64,000 bases of DNA. It comes from Bacteroidota bacterium. Lineage in GTDB: Bacteria; Bacteroidota; Bacteroidia; Palsa-965. This document shows positions 12,001 to 63,428 of the stretch, piece by piece. The translations under genes and the position numbers were made by a program. Position 1 is the stretch's first letter. Each line of letters begins with the position of its first letter. A model generated the notes under the pieces. The model made no database searches, was not told the origin of the DNA, and worked only from the letters and a program-made list of their open reading frames with translations. The stretch spans positions 248,001 through 312,000 of the forward strand of contig JACQAM010000008.1 of assembly GCA_016194975.1 (NCBI GenBank). Direction: 5' to 3'.

Positions 12001-13341
12001 TTATTTTTCCCCATCCGACCGTTTCGCCTGGGCGGGGTTCAGTTTTTTTGAAATATATTTTTCAGCCGGTAAAAGAGATTGCTGTATCCTCTTCGCATAA
12101 TTAATACTGTCAATGATCTCTTTCTGTTTCATCTCAATGAGTTCATTCTTTATCGTGAGTTGTTCGTTCGCTTTTTGTTTGATCTTGTAACGATTGAACA
12201 GAATGACAATAAAAAGCACGGCCACTATTCCGGAAGCGATAAGTACATTGCGGAGAATTTTCTTCTGCGCATTGGTCTGCTCATTCTCTAATTTCGAAAT
12301 GTGTAATTGCTGCTGATCCAGTTTCAATTCATTTTCTTTTTGCTCACGATCGAAACCCGATTTAAGATCAGCAATTCCTCTTTTTGCTGATGCAGTGGAA
12401 ATGGAATCATTCAAAGAATCGGCGCTCACTTTACAGCGAAATGCATTTTTATAATCGCCCGTCTTCGAATAAATGAGTGCGAGGCCGCTGAGCGCATCCG
12501 ACCACAGATCGAATATTCCGGCTTCCTGCGCATTCTTTAATCCTTCGAGATAATATTTTTTCGCGTTGTCATATTGCTGCTGTCGTGAAAAAAGATCACC
12601 AAGATTATTATTCACAAGTGCCATTGACTCTTTGTCTTCATCATCAATCGCATACTGTAAACTCTGACGAAGGTATTTTTCTGAAAGATAATATTTCCCC
12701 GAATCCATGTAGAACAGTGCCAGGTTGTTCAATGAATTTCCTACTCCGCTGTAATCGCCCAGCCGGATGAAAAGACTGTCGGCGATATTCATAAAGTAAA
12801 GTGAACTGTCCACCATGTGCAGGTTGAGGTACATGTCGCTGAGATTGGAAAGTACATTAGCCCTGTAATGATCATAATGGTAGTTCACGCAAATCGGAAG
12901 CGCCTCTGAAAATAATTGCATCGCTTCCCTCACATCACCATCTGCCGAATAAATATTCCCGAGATTATTAAGAAGTGCAGCTTCGTTGAAGTGATCGTTA
13001 TTACTCTTCGCGATCTTCAAACCTTCTCTCGAATATTTCAGTGCATTGGCTTCATCAGGAATAGATGTGTAAATATTGCCGAGTGTTTTCCTGGAGAATG
13101 CACGCAGATAATCATTCCCTATACTATCGGCAATTTCCATTCCGCGGAAAGCATAATCAAGCGCTTTCGATTGATCGACGCCGTCATAATCATCGCCAAT
13201 GGAAACAAGAAGATACGATCGCAAAGAATCATTGTGCGCAGAAGACAGAATTTTAAGCAGCGAATCGATGTCTTCCTGTTGTGCAGCAACAGAAGTGAAA
13301 ATGACAAGTGCTGAAAAAGAAAACAATTTCCGGAAATTCAT
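12001..13341 (-). CDS. TPR sensor protein, C-terminal phosphatase domain missing
   Basis: 446 aa. Signal peptide (MNFRKLFSFSALVIFTSVAA), about seven TPR units (residues 30-330, e.g. ALKYSREGLKIAKSNNDHFN), a coiled stretch, one membrane helix (NVLIASGIVAVLFIVILF, near 367-385) and then the linker MKQKEIIDSINYAKRIQQSL. In Bacteroidota this linker normally leads into a SpoIIE/PP2C phosphatase domain. Here the reading frame ends about 25 residues later in NPAQAKRSDGEK, which is encoded by a GC-rich mini-palindrome (12009-12037), and no phosphatase sequence follows. The gene may be a decayed or repurposed sensor half. Confidence 0.85.
   Translation of the reverse strand: MNFRKLFSFSALVIFTSVAAQQEDIDSLLKILSSAHNDSLRSYLLVSIGDDYDGVDQSKALDYAFRGMEIADSIGNDYLRAFSRKTLGNIYTSIPDEANALKYSREGLKIAKSNNDHFNEAALLNNLGNIYSADGDVREAMQLFSEALPICVNYHYDHYRANVLSNLSDMYLNLHMVDSSLYFMNIADSLFIRLGDYSGVGNSLNNLALFYMDSGKYYLSEKYLRQSLQYAIDDEDKESMALVNNNLGDLFSRQQQYDNAKKYYLEGLKNAQEAGIFDLWSDALSGLALIYSKTGDYKNAFRCKVSADSLNDSISTASAKRGIADLKSGFDREQKENELKLDQQQLHISKLENEQTNAQKKILRNVLIASGIVAVLFIVILFNRYKIKQKANEQLTIKNELIEMKQKEIIDSINYAKRIQQSLLPAEKYISKKLNPAQAKRSDGEK
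12009..12037. repeat. GC-rich mini-palindrome forming the TPR protein's C-terminus
   Basis: Outer arms CCCC/GGGG with near-matching inner bases (6 of 8). It encodes most of the terminal residues NPAQAKRSDGE of the truncated TPR protein. It resembles the CCCGCC-type elements at 15116-15138, 33259-33297 and 62719-62745. Confidence 0.45.
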
Positions 13342-14818: not shown

Positions 14819-16813
14819 TTGTCGGCTTTGAGCTCTTATTCTACCAACGAACTGAAAAAATTAGTTGATCTTCTTTCCATTGAGAAGGAAGAAGATCATC
14901 AGCAATACCTCGCGCAATTCGAACTTAGCAGCATTCCCGAAAGAAGAAAAAATGGTGTGACATGGTATCCCGTAAAAATAAATTCAGAAGAAATTGCTCC
15001 CGGCGATACGATTATTGTTGAACTTGAACGCACGCAGGGACTCGATGAGTTGCACCAGTTCGGCGGAGGAAAAGTGATCGAAGTTTTTTCGAATAATGGT
15101 GATTCCGGAAGTGAAGCGGGCCTGCCCGCCGGGGCGGGGAAATTACCAGGCACTATAAAAAATGTGTGGGGCAATCGTATGCGTGTTGCTTTTAATACTG
15201 ATGAATTGCCGGGATGGACAGAGCGCGGGAAACTCGGAATAAATCTTTTGTTCGATGAGAACAGTTATCGTGAAATGCTCATTGCACTTCAGAAAGTAAT
15301 GGATGCAGAAAAAGGAAATTTATTGCGACTGCGTGAAGTGATATACGGAGAACGTGAAGCAAAATTCGAAAGGATAGATGAAAAAATTTCGTTTGATGTG
15401 CTGAATCATTCGCAGAATGATGCCGTGCGGAAAATTATCTCAGCAGAAGATGTGGCGCTCGTGCACGGTCCGCCAGGAACAGGAAAGACCACAACGTTCA
15501 TCCAGGCCATTCTTCACACACTCCTGCACGAGAAACAGGTGCTCGTGTGTAGTCCGAGTAACGTGGCAGTGGATCTGCTCACAGAAAAATTAGTACAACA
15601 AGGTGTGAATGTTTTGCGGCTGGGAAATCCTGCGCGTGTTTCGGAAGAAGTGCTGAACAATACGCTCGATATGCGGATCGCGAATCACACTTCTTACAAT
15701 GAACTGAAAGCGTATCGCAAACGTGCGGAAGAATATTTTGCGATGGCAAAAAAATACAAACGCAATTTCGGAGCAAGTGAACGTGAACAACGGAATCTTC
15801 TTTTCAATGAAGCGCGTGCATTGCTGAAAGATGCTGCAACACTCGAAGATTATATTCTCTGGGAACAGTTCGATAATGCGCAGGTGATCGCCTGCACGCC
15901 GGTTGTATCGGCGGGAAGAATGATGCGCGACCGGAAATTCCGTTCCGTTTTCATTGACGAAGCGGGACAAGCGCTCGAGCCCATGTGCTGGATCCCGATC
16001 ACGCGCGCGCAACGGGTGATCTTCGCCGGCGATCATCTGCAATTGCCGCCGACAGTTCGTTCGCGAAAAGCAGAAGAAGGCGGATTGAAATACACGTTGT
16101 TTGAACGCGCCATAAAACATCAGCCCGATGCTGCAGTAATGTTGCGCACTCAATACCGCATGAATGAAAAGATCATGCAGTTCTCCAATAAAATGTTTTA
16201 CGGAAAAAAATTAGAGTCGGATGAAAGTGTGAAAGAGAACCTGCTCAGTTTCGATGTGAATGATGATCTGCTGCATAAGCCGGTCGATTTCATTGACACC
16301 GCCGGTTGCGGATTCACCGAAGAACAGAATTCCGAAACGCTGAGTATTTCCAACAGGGAAGAAGCGGAATTGCTATTGAAATACCTGGGTTGTGTTTTAG
16401 CACAATATGCCGCTGTCACGGTGAGTGCCAGTCGAAAGCGGACTGTAGCGGAAAAATTAACCATCGGCATCATCGCGCCTTACAAAGCGCAGACGGAATT
16501 ACTCACGCAATTGCTTGGAGAAAAAGATTTTTTCAAAAATTCTCCGCATCGTTTTTCAGTGCGCACGGTCGATGGATTCCAGGGGCAGGAGCGCGACATC
16601 ATCTGCATCAGTCTCACGCGCAGCAATGACAATGGCGAGATCGGTTTTCTTTCCGACACGCGGCGCATGAACGTAGCGCTCACGCGTGCGAAGAAAAAAT
16701 TAATTCTCTTCGGCGATTCGGCAACACTTGCCAATCATTCTTTCTACAAAGCTTTCCTGGAATACGTGGAGGAAATAGGAGCTTATCGGAGTGCGTGGGA
16801 GTTGAGGGAATGA
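14819..16813 (+). CDS. SF1 DNA/RNA helicase, IGHMBP2/UPF1-like
   Basis: 664 aa. An N-terminal beta-barrel domain (about 40-140) precedes Walker A GPPGTGKTT (217-225), Walker B VFIDEAGQALEP, motif III GDHLQLPPT, a QYRMN motif, the QGQERD motif and VALTRAKKKL at the C-terminus. This is the full motif set of the UPF1/SMUBP-2 branch of superfamily 1B, which unwinds nucleic acid 5'-3' using ATP. The start is a TTG; no in-frame ATG is near. Residues 99-108 (EAGLPAGAGK) are encoded by a GC-rich double palindrome and look like an in-frame insertion in a surface loop of the barrel. Nothing in the neighbours indicates its substrate. Confidence 0.9.
   Translation: MSALSSYSTNELKKLVDLLSIEKEEDHQQYLAQFELSSIPERRKNGVTWYPVKINSEEIAPGDTIIVELERTQGLDELHQFGGGKVIEVFSNNGDSGSEAGLPAGAGKLPGTIKNVWGNRMRVAFNTDELPGWTERGKLGINLLFDENSYREMLIALQKVMDAEKGNLLRLREVIYGEREAKFERIDEKISFDVLNHSQNDAVRKIISAEDVALVHGPPGTGKTTTFIQAILHTLLHEKQVLVCSPSNVAVDLLTEKLVQQGVNVLRLGNPARVSEEVLNNTLDMRIANHTSYNELKAYRKRAEEYFAMAKKYKRNFGASEREQRNLLFNEARALLKDAATLEDYILWEQFDNAQVIACTPVVSAGRMMRDRKFRSVFIDEAGQALEPMCWIPITRAQRVIFAGDHLQLPPTVRSRKAEEGGLKYTLFERAIKHQPDAAVMLRTQYRMNEKIMQFSNKMFYGKKLESDESVKENLLSFDVNDDLLHKPVDFIDTAGCGFTEEQNSETLSISNREEAELLLKYLGCVLAQYAAVTVSASRKRTVAEKLTIGIIAPYKAQTELLTQLLGEKDFFKNSPHRFSVRTVDGFQGQERDIICISLTRSNDNGEIGFLSDTRRMNVALTRAKKKLILFGDSATLANHSFYKAFLEYVEEIGAYRSAWELRE
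15116..15138. repeat. GC-rich mini-palindrome in frame inside helicase gene
   Basis: Two overlapping perfect 6-bp-arm palindromes: GCGGGC-CT-GCCCGC (15116-15129) and CCCGCC-GG-GGCGGG (15125-15138). They interrupt the helicase N-terminal domain without breaking the frame and differ sharply in base composition from the flanking codons. Confidence 0.7.
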
Positions 16814-33152: not shown

Positions 33153-33359
33153 AGAGGCTGTTTAAAATTCATTTTTTGGAATTGTTATGATGCCATTTTT
33201 GTTCAGCCGAGGCGCATTTTGCAGGCCATAGTGGAGCGACTACAGCCAAGAAATGCAACCCCGCCTGCTAAAGGAAAATGGGTCGTGCGTGGGCGGGCAG
33301 GGAAGGATGGACAAAAATGGCGCATAACAAAACAGAAGGATGAAATTTAAACAGCCTCT
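33153..33359. mobile_element. Fold-back (MITE-like) element, copy 1, with nested insertion
   Basis: Ends AGAGGCTGTTTAAA ... TTTAAACAGCCTCT are perfect inverted repeats. The interior matches the reverse complement of the copy at 58798-58964 almost base for base, except for a 40-odd-base CCCGCC-type palindrome inserted at about 33259 and a decayed right arm (lost TTCCAAAAAATG). It has no coding capacity. It lies in the spacer between divergent dnaG and a T9SS gene. Confidence 0.85.
33259..33297. repeat. CCCGCC-type palindrome nested in fold-back element
   Basis: Arms CCCCGCC and GGGCGGG enclose 25 bases. It is absent from the second copy of the fold-back element, where AAATGCAAC joins GAAGGATG directly, so this is an insertion after the element itself. 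Confidence 0.7.
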
Positions 33360-48399: not shown

Positions 48400-48520
48400 C
48401 ACGGAAACTATTAATGGTGACCACCCGGCGTAATACCCGGTTTATGGAGTTGGCAGGGACCGCAGCCCGTGCTCCATACTTTACACCCGCATGACGTCCT
48501 CCGTTATGTGGGTTTTTTTT
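48400..48520 (+). ncRNA. Candidate structured RNA ending in a terminator
   Basis: Several pairings can be drawn: ATGGA...TCCAT around GC/GC and GGG/CCC (about 48456-48477) and CCGG...CCGG before it, leading into a terminator stem. No known family (SRP, 6S, tmRNA) fits. It could equally be the 3' untranslated region of the upstream gene. Confidence 0.25.
48486..48520 (+). terminator. Rho-independent terminator
   Basis: Stem CCCGCATGACG / CGTTATGTGGG pairs over 11 bp with two G-U pairs, loop TCCTC, followed by eight T. It ends the DUF2306/Lys-rich operon. Confidence 0.85.
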
Positions 48521-48615
48521 ACTGTACGAACTACGAAATGCACGAAGTACGAAGTGACGAATAGAAAAATTACTTTCGTATTTCGTACTTCGTGCATTTC
48601 GTAGTTCGTACAGTA
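48520..48615. repeat. 34-bp-arm palindrome between convergent genes
   Basis: The left arm starts TACTGTACGAACTACGAAAT and the right arm ends ATTTCGTAGTTCGTACAGTA. The outer 34 bp are perfectly complementary, with further partial pairing and a loop near 48560-48572. It lies between a terminator and the gpmI stop codon (48618). It is built from the same TACGAA word as the repeats at 41845 and 45619. Confidence 0.9.
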
Positions 48616-62015: not shown

Positions 62016-63389
62016 TTAGCGTGAATCCGCGACAACTTCCATCTTCATTCCTCTCGAACCCTTGATCAGTATCAAACTATTCTGAGGATTCTCTTTCTTC
62101 AACCACTCGCCGGCGGCAACAGAATCATTCACACGTATTCCTCTGAAATCATCTTTCGTCGCCGCAAAGTGTTTTCCAACAAATACAACTTTTACGTCCT
62201 GAGCTTGTCGAAGGATCAACTTTTCTCCAATAAGATCCACTATGCGCTGATGTTCTTTCGCACTTTCTTCGCCGAGTTCAAACATATCTCCAAGCAACAG
62301 AATTTTATGCTCCGCTTTCATCTTTGCAAGATTAGTGATCGCCGCTTCCATGCTCGACGGATTCGCATTGTAATAATCAAGGATGAATGTATTCGTCCCC
62401 CGTTTTTCCATTTGCGATCGATTTATATCCGGAATATAATCCGCGATCGCATCATCAATTTCATTCGCAGGAATTCCAAAATAATTTCCCACAGCACAAG
62501 CCGCCAGCAAATTCGGAAGATTGTATTCGCCGGTGAGATGAGTGGCCACTTCGTGCGAAGAAATTTCTTTTGTCTTCCAAATGAATTTCACGAACGGATC
62601 GCTGCTAATAATTTTTCCATTTACTGAAGCATTTTCAGAAACTCCATACGTGACTACTTTCAATCCTTGCGCGCGTTTCACAATTTGTTCATCATCTGAA
62701 AAAACAAAAGCAACACCCTGCCCGACTTTGTCATTCAGGCGGGCATTTCTCTTTCTGAGATCATCAAACAATTCTGTTTTCCCTTTCAGTACGCCTTCCG
62801 CTCCGCCGAATCCTTCGAGATGGGCAAGCCCGATGTTGGTGATCAATCCGAAATCAGGTTCGGCGATCGAACTCAGTAACTCAATTTCTCCCAAATGATT
62901 CGCGCCCATTTCAATCACAGCAAACTGGTGTTCTTTTTTCAATTGCAATAAAGTGAGTGGAACTCCGATGTGATTATTCAGATTTCCATTGGTGAAGTGT
63001 GTGCGAAATTTTTTCGCGAGAACGCGCGCTATCAATTCTTTCGTGGTGGTCTTTCCATTGCTGCCGGTGAGTGCAAGTACTTTCAGCTTATTTTTTCCCA
63101 ACTCCCGGCGGTGATGATTCGCCAATTGCTGGAGCGAACGGAGAACATCATCAACCAGGATCGTCTTTTCATTTTTGAGAAAAGTTTTGTTATCGATCAC
63201 GGCGAACGCAGCACCTTTTTTCAGCGCATCATCTGCAAATTTATTTCCGTCAAAATTCCCACCCTTCAAAGCAAAGAAGATACAACCCGGAATAATACTC
63301 CTCGTGTCTGTCGAAACGAAAGGATGCTGAAGAAATATTCTATAAATATTTTCTGTTATCACAACGTCTTTAAAAGAAGAACGCTCCAA
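62016..63389 (-). CDS. murF: UDP-MurNAc-tripeptide D-alanyl-D-alanine ligase
   Basis: 457 aa, a little longer than usual for the phylum. Mur-ligase motifs: SRSIIPGCIFFALKG-like start, P-loop ALTGSNGKTTTKELIARV, EMGANHLGEIELLSSI, TNIGLAHLEGFGGAEGVLKG, and YNANPSSMEAAITNLAK. It adds D-Ala-D-Ala to the peptidoglycan precursor. Two segments look inserted in frame by small repeats: NARLNDKVGQG (near residues 214-225) and ILRQAQD (near 391-398). It follows gldJ by 39 bp in the same operon. Confidence 0.96.
   Translation of the reverse strand: MERSSFKDVVITENIYRIFLQHPFVSTDTRSIIPGCIFFALKGGNFDGNKFADDALKKGAAFAVIDNKTFLKNEKTILVDDVLRSLQQLANHHRRELGKNKLKVLALTGSNGKTTTKELIARVLAKKFRTHFTNGNLNNHIGVPLTLLQLKKEHQFAVIEMGANHLGEIELLSSIAEPDFGLITNIGLAHLEGFGGAEGVLKGKTELFDDLRKRNARLNDKVGQGVAFVFSDDEQIVKRAQGLKVVTYGVSENASVNGKIISSDPFVKFIWKTKEISSHEVATHLTGEYNLPNLLAACAVGNYFGIPANEIDDAIADYIPDINRSQMEKRGTNTFILDYYNANPSSMEAAITNLAKMKAEHKILLLGDMFELGEESAKEHQRIVDLIGEKLILRQAQDVKVVFVGKHFAATKDDFRGIRVNDSVAAGEWLKKENPQNSLILIKGSRGMKMEVVADSR
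62196..62215. repeat. CCTGAGCTTGTCGAAGG dispersed element inside murF
   Basis: The minus strand reads CCTTCGACAAGCTCAGGAC and encodes LRQAQD. From memory this short sequence recurs in the intergenic and coding DNA of many bacterial genomes. It lies at a junction where MurF homologues usually have no extra residues. Confidence 0.65.
62719..62745. repeat. GC-rich mini-palindrome in frame inside murF
   Basis: Arms TGCCCGACT and AGGCGGGCA (8 of 9 complementary) around nine bases. It encodes ARLNDKVG and keeps the frame. Same CCCGCC type as in the helicase gene. Confidence 0.7.
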
Positions 63390-63428
63390 GTTAAATACAA
63401 GGAGCGTTCTGAAATGAAAGCCGATAAT

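Follow-up and report, generated by a model that had tools for sequence, protein, structure and literature searches.

A short GC-rich palindrome in a helicase gene is likely a shortened member of a dispersed palindromic family in a Flavobacteriales genome

Analysis of a 64-kb stretch of genomic DNA (64,000 nucleotides, hereafter the window) indicates that a palindromic insert in a helicase gene is likely a shortened copy in a family of very short GC-rich palindromic elements that has spread by insertion in this Flavobacteriales lineage. Copies of the element are dispersed in the genome, with exact empty sites, no target duplication and a fixed flank. Insertion is usually directly 5' of GAAA, which is 3' of TTTC on the other strand. 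The features found in the window are listed in Table 1.

Table 1. Positions of the host genes, the family elements and the target-side motif in the window.
Feature	Position	Strand	Remark
SF1 helicase, TIGR00376 / IGHMBP2 type, 664 aa	14819..16813	+	insert in N-terminal beta-barrel loop
18-nt palindromic insert CCTGCCCGCCGGGGCGGG	15121..15138	+	in frame, adds residues within EAGLPAGAGK
GAAA, target-side motif common to the family	15139..15142	+	directly 3' of the insert, coding strand
murF, Mur ligase family (UDP-MurNAc-pentapeptide synthesis), carries a 27-nt element	62019..63428	-	Mur_ligase_M, Mur_ligase_C, Mur_ligase
27-nt element CCCGCCTGAATGACAAAGTCGGGCAGG (coding strand), encodes ARLNDKVGQ	62717..62743	-	within MurF
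Putative degenerate member (differs from the 27-nt consensus at 8 positions), then GAAAA	12010..12036	-	C-terminal end of truncated 446-aa ORF

The GC-rich segment around the helicase insert spans 15116-15139 and is the most GC-rich 22-mer of the whole window (21/22 G/C; the runner-up has 19/22), which has an overall GC content of 43.5%. A sequence-only reading had described a GC-rich palindrome inserted in frame in the helicase, and this is present as described at 15116-15138. Its wording of "perfect" palindromes does not hold strictly: two overlapping inverted repeats with 6-bp arms are real, but they have 2-nt centres. The first stem is GCGGGC-CT-GCCCGC (15116-15129) and the second is CCCGCC-GG-GGCGGG (15125-15138). 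To be noted, CCTGCCCGCCGGGGCGGG could equally be placed up to 5 nt away, as both of its edges carry GCGGG. Shuffling of the 24 bases of the segment gives one such stem in 24% and two in 3% of cases, and the RNA fold z-score is -0.61. The palindromicity of the insert by itself is weak evidence, since base composition accounts for much of it; the excess over chance comes from the surrounding element family and not from the helicase palindrome alone.

The helicase has its best fold match in 4b3f (Ighmbp2), and its reading frame runs through the segment as EAGLPAGAGK. We aligned it with 29 homologues, 6 from the same genus (66-72% identical) and 23 more distant. The six extra residues have no counterpart in any of the 6 same-genus or the 23 distant homologues, and the net gain at the site is exactly 18 nt, or 6 aa. 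The same-genus proteins read ...SE-xWK... at this loop, and AGLPAG is found in 0 of the 29 aligned homologues. The length of the loop varies across the helicase family. In the AlphaFold2 model, residues 93-107 lie between the barrel strands 86-92 and 108-117, with pLDDT below 50 at residues 94-104; the insert is thus predicted to sit in a low-confidence loop of the barrel. The location in a barrel loop proposed by the sequence-only reading agrees with this model, and its expectation that homologues lack the residues is met by all 29. The same residues in homologues of distant species would have refuted it, and none of those examined carry them.

The element family was surveyed in about 1.26 Mb of the 4.1-Mb genome. 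No near copy of the helicase 23-mer (up to 3 mismatches) is found elsewhere in the genome; near-exact searching misses the family, which was exposed by half-element searches. The half-element GCGGGCCTGCCCG turns up both in a Fic-family gene and in tandem units CCTGCCCGACCCAAACCGGGGCGGG between genes. There are 35 occurrences of CCTGCCCGCCGAAGC in the whole genome versus 3 for its reversed control. Scanning of the 1.26 Mb reveals the family arms CCYGCCYG...CRGGCRGG, and a stricter arm pattern is met at 10 places versus 0 and 0 for two control patterns in 800 kb chosen regardless of hits. Elements are mostly 27 nt long, with a range of 18-78 nt. The 27-nt form has the consensus CCCGCCCGACCGAGTCATTCGGGCGGG and encodes ARPNDSxGRG; with up to 6 mismatches this consensus gives 15 strand-hits in the 1.26 Mb and shuffled consensuses give 0. 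The elements form hairpins, many copies are intergenic, and intergenic tandem arrays are present. The genome scan that the sequence-only reading had suggested is thereby passed, with a dispersed family that is in frame in at least 14 genes.

Several observations stand beside this census. The 25-nt unit CCTGCCCGACCCAAACCGGGGCGGG occurs in intergenic tandem arrays at several places between similar flanks (GTTGTG...CAACGG): L125 9111-10278, L140 17514-17611 and L141 10195-13897. At L055 ~1507 (G000 C23:136299) a repeat CGCTCTATCTTTTGTTTCACAAAAGGATGCCGCTTCTATCCC is bordered by family palindromes. The other exact 11-mer match (C16:39643) is ordinary coding sequence, and the 23-mer matches across the class are scattered look-alikes. 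No exact 22-mer of the helicase segment is found in viral contigs. An Rfam search of the whole window gives two tRNAs only, and no family matches the insert region.

Fifteen intragenic copies in 14 genes were curated. Hosts within the window are the helicase and MurF; those elsewhere include EtfB, IspE, CysS, PyrF, UvrA, a nitrilase, Fic, a histidine kinase, and PhoH-like and RsbU-like proteins, and two MORN-repeat proteins carry three copies together. The nitrilase, UvrA, PhoH-like and RsbU-like hosts are named from their sequence and not by Pfam. A typical copy encodes A-R-P-x-x-x-x-G-R-G-K. Beyond the helicase, nine proteins were compared with homologues from same-genus and more distant genomes, leaving out the MORN, PhoH-like and RsbU-like copies, and an empty site is found in 9/9. 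The insert absent from homologues has 9 residues each in MurF, EtfB, IspE, CysS and HisK, 13 in Fic, 26 in UvrA and the nitrilase, and about 19-21 in PyrF; for MurF, five homologues are short by exactly 9 residues at the element site. The Fic element (39 nt) and the PyrF element (36 nt) both depart from 27 nt. The uvrA and nitrilase genes carry nearly identical 78-nt composite inserts, which argues for copying between loci. As delimited, 14 of the 15 copies have a length that is a multiple of 3. The exception is the UvrA element, which matches a 26-aa (78-nt) gap in the homologues but whose end is ambiguous by one G.

Comparison of filled and empty sites at the codon level shows how the element enters. 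An empty AAY/GAY-GGA-AAA becomes AAT-G[element]GA-AAA, mostly AAT|GGA|AAA to AATG[27 nt]GAAAA, and no target duplication is observed. GAAA lies directly 3' of the element in 11/15 intragenic copies, the helicase copy included, where 1.6% is expected per site (binomial probability about 2e-17). Insertion frequently falls inside the Gly codon of an N/D-G-K turn, and selection for such turns could by itself enrich the GAAA flank. Separately, a 446-aa TPR protein (window 12001-13341, minus strand) apparently stops just past the degenerate palindrome of Table 1 (PAQAKRSDGEK), and no expected downstream domain is seen in any frame.

Membership of the helicase insert in this family is likely. The insert equals the intergenic 25-nt unit, CCTGCCCG(ACCCAAA)CCGGGGCGGG, with one 7-nt gap and 18/18 letters identical, and 0 of 5000 shuffles score as well in this alignment. 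The arm criterion (CCYGCCYG...CRGGCRGG or GGGGCGGG) is also met, as CCTGCCCG..GGGGCGGG. The insert has in common with the family its arms, the GAAA side, the orientation, a length that keeps the frame and its absence from relatives. The typical 27-nt length and the ARPNDSxGRG phase are not met, as the insert has 18 nt and reads AGLPAGAGK, a reading phase different from that of the 12 typical copies. We treat 27 nt with the ARPNDSxGRG phase as the common form and not as the whole family. Because length and phase are atypical, membership is inferred from the arms, the flank and the absence in relatives. The earlier reading is corrected on this point: the helicase copy is probably a shortened, atypical family member.

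How the elements move can only be inferred. A transposition-like process would act on the hairpin, plausibly single-stranded, to make new copies, and an enzyme provided in trans would move it and insert it 3' of TTTC on one strand, like single-strand Y1 systems. Genic copies would survive only with a length divisible by 3, a frame free of stops and a site in a surface loop that tolerates them. Such inserts would then be translated as neutral or near-neutral loop peptides; their tolerance in essential enzymes implies near neutrality. The helicase copy would have lost internal bases before or after its insertion. A bolder reading is that these minimal palindromes are a still mobile class in Bacteroidota, carried in single-stranded hairpin form to positions 3' of TTTC. 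Thanks to their 27-nt size and open frames, coding genes would be a safe habitat for them, and N/D-G-K turns of essential proteins would thereby receive a standard nonapeptide. We consider this reading less likely than not.

Three Y1 transposase/RAYT genes (PF01797) are found in the genome. None of the three has support as the cognate RAYT: they are flanked by other hairpins and not by the family element. No enzyme is assigned to the family because the borders of the Y1 genes carry these other hairpins. One Y1 transposase/RAYT-type gene (L228 1100-2300; G000 C16:187431) lies between arrays of GTCGGGTGATAAC/CCCGAC hairpins, with CCCGAC/GTCGGG repeats in its flanks, and two more (L227 and L226) are accompanied by other hairpins (GGGCTTTAGCCC, ACCACCTGCAAAGCAGGTGG).

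Other explanations were weighed against an inserted family. The helicase segment could have no relation to the family, its GC-rich repeats being the chance product of an ordinary indel or of a local duplication (by slippage or templated by a quasipalindrome) in a loop of variable length. The variable length of the helicase loop, the frequency of stems in DNA this GC-rich and the GCGGG direct repeat flanking the insert speak for it. However, a unit that recurs in this genome is matched exactly (18/18, one gap), the GAAA flank is shared with the family and 14 further intragenic copies are present elsewhere in the genome, which makes it unlikely. It could also be proposed that the elements are selected regulatory hairpins (terminators, mRNA stability, binding sites) whose presence in ORFs is incidental, as they form hairpins, many copies are intergenic and intergenic tandem arrays exist. 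We consider this very improbable, given that the intragenic copies lie mid-gene at loop positions in a near-uniform frame and that same-genus orthologues do not have the elements.

A further possibility is that the inserts behave like introns or bypass elements, being removed post-transcriptionally or skipped by translation, so that the protein sequence is unaffected. The hairpin form and the presence in the essential genes murF, cysS, ispE and pyrF would fit. Skipping would not, however, need inserts that are multiples of 3, free of stops and in one preferred frame, and these features all but rule it out.

The dispersed-family reading brings the elements close to known systems in behavior. 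RPEs are dispersed palindromic repeats of 105-146 bp in Rickettsiales (PMC2229807). They lie between genes and also in frame within unrelated proteins, often conserved ones, whose orthologues are without them (PMC2229807, citing Ogata et al.); they are reportedly found in Wolbachia too. The present elements are likewise in frame and absent from orthologues (the helicase and nine other proteins), and the same element occurs in several unrelated genes (15 copies, 14 genes). In contrast to RPEs they are 18-78 nt long, so that the RPE length criterion (about 100-150 bp) is not met, and they are GC-rich in a 43% GC genome, belong to Flavobacteriales and prefer a GAAA-side target. By analogy, and without sequence comparison with RPEs, the family may be said to work like RPEs in behavior only. 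To this extent the RPE-like interpretation of the sequence-only reading is supported, for elements of 18-78 nt that are GC-rich and found in Bacteroidota.

As a correction to the sequence-only reading, intragenic palindromes outside Rickettsia are already published (PMC3733652). REPs of the GTAG and CGTC superfamilies are 20-40 bp hairpins, and some lie inside ORFs, prominent among which are DNA repair genes, including uvrA and helicases (PMC3733652). The present family too occurs in uvrA and a helicase. It differs in that GTAG is at the element ends in 0/15 copies and that there is no terminal CGTC followed by an AT-starting stem; CGTC-like letters occur in 5/15, inside the arm. The single-strand mechanism of RAYT/IS200-IS605 (Y1 HUH) enzymes inserts without target duplication beside a short fixed motif. 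Insertion of the family likewise involves no duplication and a short fixed motif; the difference is that the three Y1 genes of this genome are bordered by hairpins other than the family element. We found no report of in-frame palindromes in Bacteroidota in the open-access literature searched.

In two same-genus genomes, 0 family members are found in 340 kb and 0 in 400 kb; the wave is therefore recent or lineage-specific. Some other genomes of the family and class also show an excess of the half-motif, and related elements may therefore exist there. A search that did not fit the 27-nt form, its spacer being in excess by one base (28 instead of 27), indicates only a trend, with 10 versus 0 in the own genome and 15 versus 0 in one same-family genome. 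Most protein-embedded palindromes known come from Rickettsia and some REP-rich bacteria. With its copies in murF, cysS, ispE, pyrF, etfB and uvrA, each having an exact empty site in same-genus orthologues, the present Flavobacteriales genome is a clean system for studying how selfish DNA gets into essential proteins, which target and frame rules govern it and what enzyme is responsible for its movement. The family also cautions that a foreign loop peptide in a metagenome-assembled genome of this kind can be genuine and need not be an annotation artefact.

Other repeats are also observed. CCTGCCCGCCCACGC...GCAGGCGGG at 33260-33301 (minus strand) of the window is part of a longer repeat with ~8 genome copies and identical flanks, seen also at L102, L106, L108, L113, L117, L118 and L120. 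MITE-looking repeats of up to roughly 200 bp, which end in the inverted repeats GGGCATCTCTAA and enclose a GCGGGCAAGCCCGA palindrome, lie near the middle of L065, L066, L070, L071 and L075. Finally, a 34-nt perfect inverted repeat with a 28-nt loop (TACTGTACGAACTACGAAATGCACGAAGTACGAA) is found at 48520-48615 of the window.
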